Below, piece by piece: positions 35,914-43,045 of a stretch of 64,000 nucleotides of DNA (positions are counted from its first letter, which is position 1; every line of letters starts with the position of its first letter). The DNA is taken from contig NZ_JAAWWD010000063.1 of the NCBI RefSeq assembly GCF_021404545.1, forward strand, positions 40,664 to 104,663, in the 5' to 3' direction. The stretch comes from Aestuariivita sp. (GTDB taxonomy: Bacteria > Pseudomonadota > Alphaproteobacteria > Rhodobacterales > Rhodobacteraceae). The notes under the pieces are model-generated. The model saw only the letters and a program-made list of their open reading frames with translations, was not told the origin of the DNA and ran no database searches. The position numbers and the translations under genes were made by a program.

Positions 35914-36588
35914 TCAGCCGCGCCAGTCGACGATATCGGCGACCTCTGCACGGGTGGTGCGAAACCGGTTCGCGGGAGCCTGCGTATCCGCATAACCAAA
36001 CGAGATCGCACACAGCACCAGACGATCATCGCCAATATCGAAATGGCGATGCACGAAGGGCGCATAGGACGCAATCGCCGCCTGCGGGATGGTGGCGATG
36101 CCCAGAGCCTGCGCCGCGACGGTAAAGGCGGTCACGAACCCACCGCAATCCATCGCGCCATAAGGCCCCAGTTCGGTCGGTGAGGTGATGATGGCCACAT
36201 GCGGCGCATCAAAGAGCGCAAAGTTGCGCAGCATCTGGGCGGAGCGTCCGGCGCGGTCCGACTTCTCGATGCCCACCGCATCGTAAAGTTGAAAACCACA
36301 GGTCCGGCGCCGGTCCTGATAGATGCCGGAATAGCCATCGGGAAAGGCGATGTCGGGGCTGTGGTTGGCGGTGGCGACTTCGGCCAGAAGGGCAGAGCGA
36401 AACCGCTCGGTCTCTGCCCCGCTGGTTAGGGTCACTTGCCAGGGCTGGGCGTTGCACCAGCTGGGTGCGCGGCGGGCCAGCGCCACGATCCGCTCGATAT
36501 CGGCGCGCGGCACCGGGTCGGGGCGAAAGGCGCGGCAGGAAAACCGCGCGGCAAAGACCTGCTCCATCGTGGTGTAGGCGTCGCTCAT
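35914..36588 (-). CDS. Nitroreductase family protein
   Basis: RFSCRAFRPDPVPRADIERIVALARRAPSWCNAQPWQV. Confidence 0.9.
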   Translation of the reverse strand: MSDAYTTMEQVFAARFSCRAFRPDPVPRADIERIVALARRAPSWCNAQPWQVTLTSGAETERFRSALLAEVATANHSPDIAFPDGYSGIYQDRRRTCGFQLYDAVGIEKSDRAGRSAQMLRNFALFDAPHVAIITSPTELGPYGAMDCGGFVTAFTVAAQALGIATIPQAAIASYAPFVHRHFDIGDDRLVLCAISFGYADTQAPANRFRTTRAEVADIVDWRG

Positions 36589-36732
36589 ATCCCTCTCCCT
36601 CGGGGTCGTTTTCGCGGCACAATGGCGATGGGCGCGGGCAATCGCAAGGGGCCCGTTTTGACGCGGATCAATGAGCCCGGTCCCGGCCTCGGCGATAATA
36701 TGGGCGTTCTCAAAGCAACAGGAGCATTCGAC

Positions 36733-37152
36733 ATGGTGGAGAAATCTGAAACCGGGCATTTCTGGCCTTCGCTCTACGAGCCATTTCGCACCTTTGGCAC
36801 TCGTCTGGCCGACTGGCTGAGCCCTGCGGCCGAAGCCTCCGGCGACGGGCAGGCCTATGTGATCGACATGGAGCTGCCCGGTGTCAGCGAAGCCGATATC
36901 GAGCTGATGATCGAGGATGGTGTTGTTACCATCCGTGGAGAGAAGAAGACCGAGCAGGAGAAAAAAGGGGACACCTGGTATTTCAGCGAGCGGCAATACG
37001 GCGCTTTCCGCCGGTCGTTCCGGTTGCCCGCGGATGCCGATGCCGACGGCGTCAGTGCCCGAATGAAGGATGGGGTGCTGCGCGTGAAGGTGCCGCGGAC
37101 AGCGCCGCAACCTTCTGAAAAGGCACGTAAGATCGAGATCGCCAAGGGTTAG
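36733..37152 (+). CDS. Hsp20/alpha-crystallin family small heat shock protein
   Basis: YVIDMELPGVSEADIELMIEDGVVTIRGEKK...RSFRLPADADADGVSARMKDGVLRVKVPR; AGGAG RBS. Confidence 0.92.
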   Translation: MVEKSETGHFWPSLYEPFRTFGTRLADWLSPAAEASGDGQAYVIDMELPGVSEADIELMIEDGVVTIRGEKKTEQEKKGDTWYFSERQYGAFRRSFRLPADADADGVSARMKDGVLRVKVPRTAPQPSEKARKIEIAKG

Positions 37153-37175: not shown

Positions 37176-38282
37176 CTACTGGTTTTGGGCCACGACAAAA
37201 CCGATGGCGCCCGCCACCACCAGACCCAGCACGACGGCAATCGCGATCTTGACGACCGACCAGGGGCGTTCGCCCTGCACCCGCCCGGTGCGCCCATTGA
37301 CCACGAACCGGTATGTCTCACCCCGGTATCTGTAGGCCGCCAGCCAGACCGGCAGCAGGACATGCTTGAAGGTCACATCGCGGATATCGGTGTCGATGGC
37401 ATGAATGCGCTGGCGATCGCCACCGATGTCGAACCGCACGTCACGTTCGATCACCCGGGCCATTTTCTGGCGCGCCTCGTCATGACCTTCGGGCAGCGTG
37501 ACGGCATAGCCTTCGGCGCGAAAGCCTGCCAGAAACTCGGGCCGGTAGGGTTCGAGTGCCGGCAGATCCCACGGCTCCAGCGCGTCCGTAAAGCGCTTGG
37601 GCAGGCTGTGCGAGGCCAGCACCAGCACATCGTCGAAAAACCGCGCAACCCGGCCGGAGGCAGGGCGCCAGCGGACTTTGGGGACCCGGACCTGGGTACG
37701 TTTGCCGTCGCGCATCACGGTGCGCGTCTGATAATAGACCGTGCCCCGTTCGCCGCGGTAATCCGATGTCGTTTCGGCATCAAATGTCCAGTAGGGCACG
37801 TAGATGCCCTGCATTTTCCGCCCCTTGCGCGCATAATCCTGCAACCCGTTCGGCGCGAACCACAGCCGTCCCAGCCAGGCTTTCATCGCATCGCGCGCGG
37901 CCTCTTCGGTCAGGGCAAAGGGCAGAACACCGCGCGGTTTGATATGCCTGTGGATACCGGTATCGGTGACCACCGGTGTGGCGCAGAACGGGCATTCCTT
38001 GGCATGGATCTGTGGGTCGTATTCCACCTGTGCCGCGCAGTTGGGGCAGGACAGGACCCGGGTTTCCTCCATCTGCGTCTCGGGCAGGGCCTGTGCCTGG
38101 GCCGCGTCGAAATCCAGCTCTCGCAGGCTGGCGCCTTCCCATGGGCCCGCGCGGACTTCTTGGGAATGGCCGCAATGCGCGCAGGTCAAGGCGCCGGACT
38201 GAGGGTCGAACCGGTAGTCGGCGCCGCATTGCTCGCATGGAAAGCGGTGTTCCTGAAGGGGTGCGGTTGGCGTGTCAGTCAT
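37176..38282 (-). CDS. TFIIB-type zinc-ribbon membrane protein (YdjG-like)
   Basis: Two CxxC...CxxC ribbons (CEQCGADYRFDPQSGALTCAHCGH; CPNCAAQVEYDPQIHAKECPFC); C-terminal TM segment. Confidence 0.82.
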   Translation of the reverse strand: MTDTPTAPLQEHRFPCEQCGADYRFDPQSGALTCAHCGHSQEVRAGPWEGASLRELDFDAAQAQALPETQMEETRVLSCPNCAAQVEYDPQIHAKECPFCATPVVTDTGIHRHIKPRGVLPFALTEEAARDAMKAWLGRLWFAPNGLQDYARKGRKMQGIYVPYWTFDAETTSDYRGERGTVYYQTRTVMRDGKRTQVRVPKVRWRPASGRVARFFDDVLVLASHSLPKRFTDALEPWDLPALEPYRPEFLAGFRAEGYAVTLPEGHDEARQKMARVIERDVRFDIGGDRQRIHAIDTDIRDVTFKHVLLPVWLAAYRYRGETYRFVVNGRTGRVQGERPWSVVKIAIAVVLGLVVAGAIGFVVAQNQ

Positions 38283-38704
38283 AGCATGTCATGCAGGGGT
38301 TTGGGGGTAATGCGCCGCAACGCGCCGTCACCCAGGGCGGTATGGCGCCAAAGGTGGAACACCGCATGAAGCGACGCGGCCCCCAACGTATAGAAATAGA
38401 TCTCTCGCAGCGAGGCGGGTGCCGTCCATTGTCCCAGAAGGGCAAGCGCCGTGAGCGCGGCGACCGCGGCAAGGCCCAGATACATCGCCCAGCTCAGAAC
38501 AGGATGCGCGCTGCGCAAAAACCCGGTCAGTTTCGGTCCGGGCCCGTTCAAAAGGCCTCGCAACAGTGCCAGCCCCGTCATCATAAACGCGCTGGCCACA
38601 AAGACCCAGGCCAGCGCCGGAACCGGACCCGCGGCGACCAAAAGGATCAACAGCAGCAAGTTCAGCCAGTGCAAGGCAACTGTCAGCGACCGTCGGTCCA
38701 GCAT
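38279..38704 (-). CDS. Membrane protein, cytochrome b561-like
   Basis: VALHWLNLLLLILLVAAG, RSAHPVLSWAMY, SLHAVFHLWRHTALGDGALRRITP; 4-nt overlap with the next gene. Confidence 0.65.
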   Translation of the reverse strand: MLDRRSLTVALHWLNLLLLILLVAAGPVPALAWVFVASAFMMTGLALLRGLLNGPGPKLTGFLRSAHPVLSWAMYLGLAAVAALTALALLGQWTAPASLREIYFYTLGAASLHAVFHLWRHTALGDGALRRITPKPLHDML

Positions 38705-38710
38705 GTCCGA

Positions 38711-39832
38711 TCACACCCCCGGCGGAGGTGGCGGCGGCAACACGGTGAAAAGCTGCGCCAGTTCGGCCACATCCTCGGCCCGCAGCCAGCCGTCCTGGCC
38801 CGCAGTCCACACGAACGTGTCGCGGGTCAGTGTGCCATCGGCGGCCATCCGCCCCAGCTTGGCCTTGGAAAACGGGCCGGTGGTGGCGCCGTTCTCGGCG
38901 ATATGCCAGACATGCTCGACCGGCGGCGGGGGCGGTGCGAGGGCCGCAGGCTGCGGCGATTGCGCCACCTGGCGCGCGCCCCAGGGTCCGCCCTGCGCGG
39001 CCTGCTGGCCGATCTGCATACCCAGCCCTGCACCCAGCCCCGTCTGGATTGCCGCGGCCCCCGCGCCATCGCGGCCCAGGGCCTCGGCCGCCTGAAACTG
39101 CATGTATTCGTTGAGATTTCCGATCACCCCCATGGAGGTGCGCTTGTCCATCACCTGCTCGACCGCGGGCGGCAGCGAGATGTTTTCGACATAAAGCTCA
39201 GGAATCGCCAGCCCGTACCCAGCCAGCGTTCCAGCGATGTCTCCGGCAACAAGCTGGCCCAGCTCACGGGTGTTGGCGGCCATGTCCATCACCGGGATGC
39301 CCGCCCGCGCGATGGTGCGCGAAAACTCCTGCACGATGATGTTGCGGATCTGAAAGCTGATCTCGTCCATGGTGAACTCGCCATCGGTGCCGACGATTTC
39401 GACCAGGAATTTCGCCGGGTCCGCGACCTTGACAGTATAGGTTCCGAAGGCGCGCAGCCGCACTGGCCCAAATTCGGGATCGCGGCAGATCACCGGGTTC
39501 TTGGTGCCCCATTTGAGGTTTGAAAACCGGGTGGTATTGACGAAATAGACCTCGGATTTGAAGGGACTTTTGAAGCCGTGGTCCCAATGCTGGAGCGTGG
39601 TCATGACGGGCATGTTGTTGGTCTCAAGCATATAAAGACCGGGGGTGAAGACATCCGCCAGCTGCCCTTCATGCACGAACACCGCCGCCTGACCTTCGCG
39701 CACGGTCAGCTTGGCGCCGTACTTGATCTCGTGCCCCTCACGTTCGAACCGCCAGACCATGGTGTCGCGGGTGTCGTCGACCCAGTGGATGACGTCGATG
39801 AACTCGCCGGTGAGAAAGTCGAAAATGCCCAT
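38711..39832 (-). CDS. SPFH domain protein with C-terminal GYF_2 domain (virion core protein/YdjI-like)
   Basis: MGIFDFLTGEFIDVIHWVDDTRDTMVWRFEREGHEIKYGAKLTVREGQAAVFVHEGQLADVFTPGLYML; C-terminal VWHIAENGATTGPFSKAKLGRMAADGTLTRDTFVWTAGQDGW. Confidence 0.88.
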   Translation of the reverse strand: MGIFDFLTGEFIDVIHWVDDTRDTMVWRFEREGHEIKYGAKLTVREGQAAVFVHEGQLADVFTPGLYMLETNNMPVMTTLQHWDHGFKSPFKSEVYFVNTTRFSNLKWGTKNPVICRDPEFGPVRLRAFGTYTVKVADPAKFLVEIVGTDGEFTMDEISFQIRNIIVQEFSRTIARAGIPVMDMAANTRELGQLVAGDIAGTLAGYGLAIPELYVENISLPPAVEQVMDKRTSMGVIGNLNEYMQFQAAEALGRDGAGAAAIQTGLGAGLGMQIGQQAAQGGPWGARQVAQSPQPAALAPPPPPVEHVWHIAENGATTGPFSKAKLGRMAADGTLTRDTFVWTAGQDGWLRAEDVAELAQLFTVLPPPPPPGV

Positions 39833-39858
39833 GAATGATCTCCTTGGGGGTCAAAGGC

Positions 39859-40818
39859 TCAGAGCTGCTGGCCCATCAGCTCGCGCGCCAGGATGCGGAT
39901 CACGGGGCGGGCGGCGTCGGCGTCCATGCCCTGGTTGAGGCGCGGATCGTAGAGCATCGAAAGCAGTTGCTCGTCATGGCTGGTCAAGAGCGCGAACTCG
40001 TCATCGTCGTTAAAGATCGACGGGCGCGCATCCGGGCTGTCATTTGCCAGGCCAAGTCCCTGCGCCAGTTCCTCGTGAATACACGACAGCCGGATCAGGT
40101 CGGGATGTTCGGCCCGGATCACGGCCACGGCGCGGGTATAGTTCTGCGGGTTGTCATTGCCGGAAAACGCCACGACCAGACAATGGATCGACCGGGGCAG
40201 GGAGGTGATCACCTCCAGCGTCCGATCAGAGATGTTGGGCACCTTCTGACGCAACAGGGCAATCATCTGATCGGTGTCATCCTCGCTCATGAACAGAACG
40301 TGGAAATTGCCCTGACCGGCATAGCTGATCGGATGCCCGGTCACCCGCGCCAGACGCCGGACATAGTTCCGGACCGAAGCGCGGTCCTGGTCCCGTCTGG
40401 CGGTTGGCACGCTGTTGCCAAAGCTGATATCCATCCGGACCGGCCCGCTCCAACGTCGCAGCTTGCCCGCCGTGTCACGGGATGTGGCCGTCAGGCCGGC
40501 CCCTTGGGCGTATTCGTCGAAAAAGGCGATGCGCTCGAAATTGCGGGCCAGCACGTCGGCGGTGTAGGGTGTGTCGGGCCCACCGCCATCGGTTCTCAAG
40601 AGCCCTTGGGCCACCAGATCGGCCTGTAGCCGCCCGTAATAGCGGGTCAGTTGCTCGCTGCCCAGTGAGCGCGGCACATCGCCAGGCACCACCAAGGCGG
40701 CGGGGCGCGAGGGTGGGGTGGGCACCGGCTCCACCTGCTGGATCATGGCACAGCCCGCCAGCAGAACCCCAACCCCGGCCAGGGCGACTGCGTCGATATA
40801 TGTGCGCACCCGCGTCAT
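39859..40818 (-). CDS. DUF2927 domain lipoprotein
   Basis: Lipobox LLAGC; IRLSCIHEELAQGLGLANDSPDARPSIFNDDDEFALLTSHDEQLLSMLYD. Confidence 0.8.
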   Translation of the reverse strand: MTRVRTYIDAVALAGVGVLLAGCAMIQQVEPVPTPPSRPAALVVPGDVPRSLGSEQLTRYYGRLQADLVAQGLLRTDGGGPDTPYTADVLARNFERIAFFDEYAQGAGLTATSRDTAGKLRRWSGPVRMDISFGNSVPTARRDQDRASVRNYVRRLARVTGHPISYAGQGNFHVLFMSEDDTDQMIALLRQKVPNISDRTLEVITSLPRSIHCLVVAFSGNDNPQNYTRAVAVIRAEHPDLIRLSCIHEELAQGLGLANDSPDARPSIFNDDDEFALLTSHDEQLLSMLYDPRLNQGMDADAARPVIRILARELMGQQL

Positions 40819-40827
40819 GCCCTGTGC

Positions 40828-42018
40828 TCAGCCCGGAACGGCCGTACCGGAGGTGTCGCCGACCCCGTCGCGGCGTGCCTTGGCCGAGGCCAGCGTGTCG
40901 CGCAGCTCGGCCTCCATCTTCTTGAGTTCCTCTTCGGCGGCGGCACGGCGGGCCTTGCCTTCATCCGCGATCTGGAGGCTTTCCTGGATGGTGCCGATCA
41001 GATCGGCATTGGCCTGTTTGACAGCCTCGATGTCAAAGACGCCGCGTTCCATTTCTTGCCGGATCATCTTGTTGCTGTCGCGCAGGTTCTTGGCATTGGC
41101 GGTCAAAAGCTCGTTGGTCAGGTCATTGGCGTCACGCACGGCAGCGGCTGCCTCGGCGCTGCGCTGGATGGTGACGGCCTGGGCCAGCTGGGTCTCCCAC
41201 AGCGGCACGGTGTTGACCAGGGTCGAGTTGATCTTGGTGACCAGGCTCTTGTCGTTTTCCTGCACCAGCCGGATCGAGGGCAGCGATTGCATCGTCACCT
41301 GGCGCGTGAGTTTCAGATCATGCACCCGGCGCTCCAGATCGTCGCGCGCGGCGCGCAGGTCCCGCAACTCCTGCGCTTCCATCACCTGGTCGTTTTCGGC
41401 CGCGGCACTCACCTGCGCCTCCTTGGCTGGGATCGTCTCGGTATCCAGAACGCGCAGCTTTTCCTCGCCCGCCGCGATGTAAAGCGCCAGCTCGTCATAA
41501 AAGGCCAGCGTCTTTTCATAGAGCAGGTCGAGCGATTTGATATCCTTGAGCAGAACATGCTCATGACCCAGCAGATCGTCGGTGATCCGGTCGATCTGGC
41601 CCTGCACCTGTTCGAACTTGGCGCTGAACTGGGCAAAGGGAGCGGCACGCCCCAGCAGCTTTTCCCACCAGCTGCGCTCGCGGCGCACGTCCAGTTCCGA
41701 CACTGAAAAGCCGCGGATCGTGGTCACGATATTGCGCAGGCTGTCGCCCGCGGGCCCCACATCCTTGTTGCGCACATCCGCCAGCATCGCCTGGCTGATC
41801 TGTTGCAGCTCTGCCTGCGCGCCCGAGCCAAAGCCGACGATCGAGCCGGTGCTGGAAATGTCGATCTCGTCCATCCGCTTGCGGATCTCGGCGCTGACCG
41901 GCGCGTCGGCCTCGGCCAGAGCCACGATCTCGCCTTTGGGTTCGGGCAGGATCACGGCCGACACGGCCTCGACCTCGGCCAGGGCGGCCTGGGCTTGTTC
42001 ACGGGTCGTCTCAGACAT
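40828..42018 (-). CDS. Toxic anion resistance protein (TelA/YaaN family)
   Basis: FSVSELDVRRERSWWEKLLGRAAPF; extended coiled coil; RLVQENDKSLVTKINSTLVNTVPLWETQLAQAVTIQR. Confidence 0.92.
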   Translation of the reverse strand: MSETTREQAQAALAEVEAVSAVILPEPKGEIVALAEADAPVSAEIRKRMDEIDISSTGSIVGFGSGAQAELQQISQAMLADVRNKDVGPAGDSLRNIVTTIRGFSVSELDVRRERSWWEKLLGRAAPFAQFSAKFEQVQGQIDRITDDLLGHEHVLLKDIKSLDLLYEKTLAFYDELALYIAAGEEKLRVLDTETIPAKEAQVSAAAENDQVMEAQELRDLRAARDDLERRVHDLKLTRQVTMQSLPSIRLVQENDKSLVTKINSTLVNTVPLWETQLAQAVTIQRSAEAAAAVRDANDLTNELLTANAKNLRDSNKMIRQEMERGVFDIEAVKQANADLIGTIQESLQIADEGKARRAAAEEELKKMEAELRDTLASAKARRDGVGDTSGTAVPG

Positions 42019-42053
42019 GGGAGGTCCTCACTTGTTATGGATTGGGCGCGGGG

Positions 42054-42950
42054 TCACAATCGGACCCCTTCGCGTTCCAGACGCTCGCGCAACACATCGA
42101 TTTCAACCGTCAGATCGCTGCGATCCTCCAGCAGCATCTTGCGGGTCCGGGCCGAAAAGCTCTGCTCCAGATCATCCAGCAGCGCGGCATAATCCTCACG
42201 CGCCTGCGCGTCGCGGGTGCGGGCGTAGATATCGGCGAATTTGGCGGTCGCATCGCGCGCACCCAAAAGGTACACGCCCAGATAGCGGCGCGCGCCGGTC
42301 AGATCGCGGGGGTCTTCCTCGACCGTGCGGAACATCTCGCGTGCGGTCTGCTGAAAGCGTTCGACGCGCGCCTCCATCTGACGATCTCCGGCGCGTTGGA
42401 TGGCATCGGTCATGGCGCTCAGATGCCGCTCGGCCTCGTCCACAACGCGCGCGACGCGGTCCTGCTGGAAGGTGTCAACACCCTCCAGCCCCTTGTCCTT
42501 CAGCGGATCCACACCAAAGCTTGCCATGTGCAGCCCGCCCGCCGCCAGCGCAAAGATCGCCGGGGCGATCAGGCCGGGGTCGTTCTTGTAGGCGGCCATG
42601 CCAACCCCGATTCCGGTCAGCATCGAGGCAAAGATCTTGCGCGGGATCGCGGGGCGCTTGGCCACCTTGCGCGCGGTGTATGCGGCCTCCGCGCGCAGCC
42701 CGTCGCGCAAAAGCCACGCCGCCAGGATCAAGACGCCGGCAGCCGTCAGGCCCAGCGCCATTCCCAGCGCCCCGTCATTCAGCGAGAAGAACCCCAACAG
42801 CACCGGCGGCAGAAACAGCAGGTTCGACCGCGCACCGACCGGATCCACATCCGCGCCCTGAAAGGTGCCGCGCGGGGCCGGATCGGACCCCGTTTTACCC
42901 CCGACCTGCCCCGGAGTGGGGCTGTATTTGCCGCCAAAGCGTTTGGCCAT
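42054..42950 (-). CDS. XpaC-like 5-bromo-4-chloroindolyl phosphate hydrolysis family membrane protein
   Basis: Two TM segments followed by a helical domain; paired with TelA as in xpaC-yaaN. Confidence 0.78.
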   Translation of the reverse strand: MAKRFGGKYSPTPGQVGGKTGSDPAPRGTFQGADVDPVGARSNLLFLPPVLLGFFSLNDGALGMALGLTAAGVLILAAWLLRDGLRAEAAYTARKVAKRPAIPRKIFASMLTGIGVGMAAYKNDPGLIAPAIFALAAGGLHMASFGVDPLKDKGLEGVDTFQQDRVARVVDEAERHLSAMTDAIQRAGDRQMEARVERFQQTAREMFRTVEEDPRDLTGARRYLGVYLLGARDATAKFADIYARTRDAQAREDYAALLDDLEQSFSARTRKMLLEDRSDLTVEIDVLRERLEREGVRL

Positions 42951-42955
42951 GCCTC

Positions 42956-43045
42956 TCAGAGCCCCCCGAGCCAGCCGGTGGCGGTGCCGAACATGAGGAT
43001 CAAAAGTGCTGCATAGGTGATCTTTTGCAGCCCGCTTGCGGACAT
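42956..43045 (-). CDS. Predicted 29-aa single-pass small membrane protein
   Basis: MSASGLQKITYAALLILMFGTATGWLGGL*; GGGGAG SD ~5-6 nt upstream of ATG; 5 nt before the XpaC gene; too short for the ORF track. Confidence 0.65.
   Translation of the reverse strand: MSASGLQKITYAALLILMFGTATGWLGGL

Follow-up and report, generated by a model that had tools for sequence, protein, structure and literature searches.

A conserved gene cluster joining XpaC–TelA to a YdjG/YdjI-type scaffold, a candidate PspA-independent membrane-stress operon of Rhodobacteraceae

Gene content of the operon

We analysed a 64,000-nucleotide (nt) stretch of DNA, here called the window, from an Aestuariivita species (Alphaproteobacteria, Rhodobacteraceae; RefSeq assembly GCF_021404545.1, contig NZ_JAAWWD010000063.1, positions 40,664 to 104,663 of the forward strand). 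At window positions 37176–43045, seven minus-strand genes combine xpaC and telA with genes for SPFH and zinc-ribbon proteins of the YdjI and YdjG types (Table 1). The names of TelA and XpaC go back to tellurite resistance and an indicator dye, and what the two proteins do has been uncertain ever since. The successive gaps in transcription order are 5, 35, 9, 26 and 6 nt, followed by one 4-nt overlap, and no terminator-like sites lie within the intergenic gaps. Open reading frame (ORF) coordinates and Pfam matches confirm the block as described in a first-pass annotation made from the sequence alone, with exact agreement in ORF positions, gaps and overlap and with the same protein families.

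Table 1 Genes of the operon, listed in transcription order
Feature	Position	Strand	Status	Evidence
Hydrophobic small ORF, 29 aa, first gene	42956..43045	-		Similar short ORFs before xpaC elsewhere
XpaC, 298 aa	42054..42950	-	Core	PF10112 1.4e-30; hydrophobic segments 62-80 and 127-145 (hydropathy)
TelA, 396 aa	40828..42018	-	Core	PF05816 1.2e-105; long helical, no transmembrane segment (hydropathy); AlphaFold2 pLDDT 75
DUF2927 lipoprotein, 319 aa	39859..40818	-	Lineage-specific	PF11150 1.8e-62; lipobox LAGC, Cys23; alignment
SPFH protein, Band_7_1 (YdjI-type), 373 aa	38711..39832	-	Core	PF13421 1.4e-100; C-terminal GYF_2 (PF14237) 2.1e-21; Pro-rich tail; alignment
b561-like membrane protein, 141 aa	38279..38704	-	Optional	Iterated profile ~1e-28
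YdjG-family zinc-ribbon/transmembrane protein, 368 aa	37176..38282	-	Core	Invariant Cys; Enterococcus homologue; AlphaFold2 pLDDT 92

XpaC is followed directly by TelA, as in known XpaC–TelA pairs. Both had been placed in the inner membrane by the first-pass annotation, an assignment that needs correcting for TelA. AlphaFold2 models TelA as several very long helices, which are predicted to form a long coiled coil, and because it also lacks a transmembrane segment, TelA is predicted to be a peripheral rather than an inner-membrane protein. A sequence search of the Protein Data Bank (PDB) found no solved relative of TelA. The idea that TelA is a remote PspA homologue, within the PspA/ESCRT-III superfamily, was rejected for now at an hhalign probability of 2–11%. 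Other Alphaproteobacteria carry a different TelA operon (L082:6147-11270, L083:6147-10829 and L085:9729-14416), in the order TelA, a solute-binding lipoprotein (with a VWA domain in L082), an XpaC-like protein and a second solute-binding-like protein.

The SPFH protein is of the Band_7_1 type, and the same profile, PF13421, also matches in Bacillus subtilis, which served as a control; a PDB sequence search with it matched the GYF domain only. Only weak ribbon models in Pfam match the zinc-ribbon protein. Eight cysteines (C16, C19, C34, C37, C79, C82, C97 and C100), which make up two four-cysteine ribbons, are invariant across 56 homologues, and hydropathy predicts a C-terminal transmembrane anchor at residues 346–364. 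One homologue lies on an Enterococcus gallinarum plasmid (L266), where genes for SPFH, zinc-ribbon and TPM proteins stand side by side and together match ydjI, ydjG and ydjH in domain content. The window's zinc-ribbon protein matches it from end to end (BLASTP 2e-38), and the two SPFH proteins match more weakly (6e-11). On these sequence relations, we assign the zinc-ribbon protein to the YdjG family. A provisional YdjG sequence, both ends of which fit cloning primers printed in PMC8581546, finds the same plasmid proteins; because the sequence is provisional, this match counts as a lead and not as a test.

The AlphaFold2 model of the zinc-ribbon protein is confident (pLDDT 92, pTM 0.86) and consists of the two ribbons, an elongated beta domain after them with three strands of about 30 residues, and a C-terminal helix. 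No solved structure in the PDB matches it at E ≤ 0.001, and a PDB sequence search was likewise without a solved relative. The core of YdjG has been described as an NTF2-like fold (PMC11237479); that fold is not among the 50 best matches in a comparison that covered the model of the window's protein. In seven loci from Desulfuromonadia and relatives, the gene after SPFH–GYF encodes, in place of the YdjG-family protein, another protein with two zinc ribbons that is unrelated to it (of the PF13453 type in L188).

The core of the operon is four genes, and those for DUF2927 and the b561-like protein are mostly lineage-specific additions. Short hydrophobic ORFs resembling the 29-aa ORF directly precede xpaC in 19 loci and, judged by this likeness, form a real small family. 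Aligned DUF2927 proteins share a lipobox, whose cysteine is nearly invariant, and the conserved motif EExxQxxGxxND, which recalls a degenerate zincin (metzincin) site; one relative carries H at the Q position. A literature search found no paper on DUF2927. Even at E = 1, Pfam gives no match for the 141-aa protein. The label b561-like, proposed from the sequence, holds because the iterated profile reaches b561-like proteins and HW, LH and RH/HH positions are conserved, with heme binding putative. Given a four-gene core and additions that are mostly lineage-specific, the envelope-spanning complex first proposed would deserve that description at most in the version found in the window's family, and not for the core in general.

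Conserved gene order within and beyond the family

Among 150 sampled genera of the window's family, TelA is found in 134 and full-length Band_7_1 in 133, with both present in 132. In 124 of these 132, the SPFH gene shares the strand of telA and follows it within 5 kb downstream, the matched domains being separated by a median of 1,139 nt. The two are apart in eight genomes, of which at least two (G224 and G205) look like contig breaks, one (G227) is ambiguous and five are real splits. Because an unrelated rsuA-type gene also lies upstream in most family loci, synteny at the family level carries little weight when taken alone.

The order persists far beyond near relatives. Full-length Band_7_1 occurs in seven genomes of a class-wide sample of 142, with TelA adjoining in six of them, and the order XpaC–TelA–SPFH–zinc-ribbon without DUF2927 is present in four other families of the class. 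We also scanned named genomes with an SPFH profile and kept the best 80 loci: TelA lies beside SPFH in 43, nearly all of which also have XpaC and the zinc-ribbon protein, and neither TelA nor a zinc-ribbon gene does in 13. The scan started from TelA-linked members, so that the proportion of 43 in 80 is biased. The 43 loci come from Alphaproteobacteria, Gammaproteobacteria (Thiotrichaceae, Granulosicoccaceae, Sedimenticola and Competibacteraceae) and Campylobacterota, all 11 of whose loci are included. Distant groups that carry the core have no flanking genes in common, and insertions between core genes of relatives are sporadic, with no further conserved member among them. Across 42 loci with all four genes, pairwise protein distances correlate at r 0.82–0.89, compared with ≤0.22 in permutations, a correlation that owes part of its strength to plain shared descent.

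The merger of ydjG/ydjI-like and xpaC/telA-like modules is therefore real and old. The first-pass annotation had proposed such a merger and asked whether the gene order would persist; homology was tested for both modules, and the four-gene core recurs in other Alphaproteobacteria, in Gammaproteobacteria and in Campylobacterota. Chance co-occurrence confined to near relatives fails as an explanation, because the order is conserved far beyond them.

In the SPFH tree, the proteins of the 11 Campylobacterota loci, which carry the four-gene cluster, group with gammaproteobacterial SPFH proteins (24 rows, support 98/87), a branch that may reflect transfer between phyla. A locus from another class of the phylum (L136:8510-11314) has XpaC–TelA followed by a diverged SPFH-like protein that retains the GYF domain (GYF_2 8.8e-10, Band_7_1 only 0.0027). 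Directly past the window's operon lies a convergent Hsp20-type small heat-shock gene (window 36436–37152), likewise present in about ten family relatives. A search for sigma-factor motifs in 42 upstream regions gave nothing beyond chance.

Membrane stress and competing explanations

The window's genome, which is 99.96% complete, has no profile match for PspA/IM30 (PF04012) or for a YdjH-type TPM protein (PF04536), so PspA is missing not only from the window, as first noticed, but from the genome as a whole. PspA lies above the cut-off in only 25 of the 150 family genera, and the operon is therefore not PspA-dependent as a rule. In B. subtilis, YdjI requires YdjG and YdjH to localise to the membrane, and PspA requires YdjI, YdjG and YdjH (PMC8581546). 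The units pspA-ydjGHI, xpaC-yaaN and yceC-H, in which yceF is a TerC gene, are separate members of the sigma-W regulon of that species (PMC3498285). Genes that form a single operon here thus belong to a single regulon in B. subtilis, which links the modules independently and lends separate support to a role in membrane stress. A Listeria telA mutant shows greater sensitivity to nisin and tellurite, as reported in PMC12791056.

We favour, at about even confidence, a membrane-stress complex that works without PspA and joins XpaC–TelA to a YdjG/YdjI scaffold. Gene content, homology, conserved order, correlated divergence and the absence of PspA and TPM are direct observations. From them we infer the function, and with it complex formation, topology, trigger and a protective or repair effect, along the following lines. 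The four core proteins would operate at the inner membrane. The YdjG-family protein would be tail-anchored, its ribbons and beta domain probably cytoplasmic, and would recruit the YdjI-type SPFH protein, which would assemble into a membrane scaffold and whose GYF domain might bind Pro-rich tails. XpaC, with its two hydrophobic segments, would tether the cytoplasmic TelA with its long helices to the same membrane. On perturbation of the membrane by cationic peptides, pH or toxic ions, both modules would jointly stabilise it, with XpaC–TelA filling the position in the circuit that PspA–YdjH holds in Bacillus. The window's family would have added a periplasm-facing DUF2927 lipoprotein and the b561-like membrane protein. 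A bolder and more tentative proposal, to which we give somewhat less than an even chance, is that XpaC–TelA is an alternative effector replacing PspA/YdjH on the YdjG–YdjI scaffold. This would be a PspA-free membrane-repair machine in Rhodobacterales, several Gammaproteobacteria and Campylobacterota, which would have escaped notice under the annotations ‘toxic anion resistance’, ‘SPFH’ and ‘zinc ribbon’ given to its proteins.

Several observations weigh against a joint complex of this kind. In the five family genomes with real splits, both modules are separate and apparently work so, and the breakpoint falls between XpaC–TelA(–DUF2927) and (DUF2927–)SPFH–zinc-ribbon, never within a module. Among the best 80 loci, 24 (two of them cut by contig ends) have the SPFH–zinc-ribbon pair without TelA, from Planctomycetota, Bacteroidota, Gemmatimonadota, Actinomycetota and others. 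In a phylum-wide sample of genomes with full-length Band_7_1, TelA is adjacent in 0 of 21 outside the family and 19 of 19 inside it, which makes the linkage patchy beyond the family. PspA is also absent from the top 50 fold matches of the TelA model, which is of moderate confidence. Splits confined to the module boundary, SPFH–zinc-ribbon pairs lacking TelA in many phyla and the frequent occurrence of TelA without SPFH would all suit two independent modules on one transcript, both responding to envelope stress and forming no joint complex, and shared descent alone can yield correlated distances. This explanation seems improbable to us, given that adjacency has been retained across very deep divergence, in groups whose neighbourhoods are otherwise unrelated.

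The presence of TerC before the operon in 25 family genomes makes a metal role the main rival to a membrane-stress complex. The operon would then serve metal or oxyanion handling: together with TerC it would support the loading of exported proteins with manganese or zinc, as well as tolerance of tellurite-like anions, and membrane protection would be a side effect. Of the 29 family genomes with one particular TerC subfamily (PF03741), 25 carry its gene immediately upstream of xpaC in the same orientation, as against 0 of 34 for other TerC genes, and both the zinc ribbons and the TelA family name point in the same direction. The B. subtilis TerC protein MeeF/YceF is active in manganese loading of exoenzymes (PMC10550928), and yceF shares an operon with yceG-yceH (PMC3498285). 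However, the window's genome has no match to TerC, only 25 of the 134 genomes with TelA carry TerC next to the operon, and tellurite resistance reflects naming history rather than a demonstrated mechanism. On balance we regard the metal explanation as fairly unlikely.

An anti-phage defence operon is very improbable. Phage stress is the condition under which phage shock protein (PSP) responses were first noticed, and a Vibrio plasmid has an SPFH–zinc-ribbon pair near a TIR-domain gene, but PADLOC returned a single weak match (E 0.011), and the operon is present in about 90% of the family's genera, mostly next to rsuA, which is unlike a mobile defence system. A defence system was accordingly rejected as lacking PADLOC support. 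On the Vibrio plasmid, p1ST2 (L269), the pair is without TelA and lies near genes for TIR and TRAFs-binding domains.

Relation to known systems

Each module was already known. To our knowledge their union has not been described; the literature searched, with most subscription journals outside it, contains no description of the union and no paper that pairs ‘toxic anion resistance protein’ with ‘SPFH domain-containing protein’, whereas two papers name both TelA and XpaC. By linking TelA and XpaC, across deep divergence, with the YdjG/YdjI scaffold known from the PSP response, the cluster provides them with a partner and a setting that can be tested, and it places that scaffold outside Bacillota without PspA. 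A PspA-independent membrane-stress complex would help to explain how a major family of bacteria, most of whose members have no PspA, protects its inner membrane, and the zinc-ribbon protein offers a confidently predicted core without a significant match among solved structures.

Five known arrangements bear comparison. The Bacillus yceCDEFGH cluster encodes TerD and TerC proteins with YceH, a TelA homologue, and resembles the 25 family relatives in having TerC beside TelA; it differs from the window's operon, which has no TerD-type genes seen beside it and sits in a genome without TerC. The E. gallinarum plasmid cluster shares homologous SPFH and zinc-ribbon proteins encoded by neighbouring genes but has a TPM (YdjH-type) gene and no XpaC–TelA. 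In B. subtilis pspA-ydjG-ydjH-ydjI, under sigma-W control (PMC8581546, PMC11237479), YdjG-family and Band_7_1 SPFH proteins are likewise encoded together in an envelope-stress setting, whereas the window's genome lacks PspA and TPM/YdjH, its SPFH protein has a C-terminal GYF domain and XpaC–TelA is joined to the set. PspA-free PSP variants (PspC/Toastrack/Lia; PMC11237479) also have PSP-type partners operating without PspA but are centred on PspC and Toastrack, and the main text of that paper mentions neither TelA nor XpaC. Closest to the other half of the operon are Bacillus xpaC-yaaN and Listeria lmo1966-lmo1967, stress-induced pairs of Firmicutes in which XpaC is again followed by TelA; there the pair is free-standing, whereas here the genes for the SPFH and zinc-ribbon proteins come after it.

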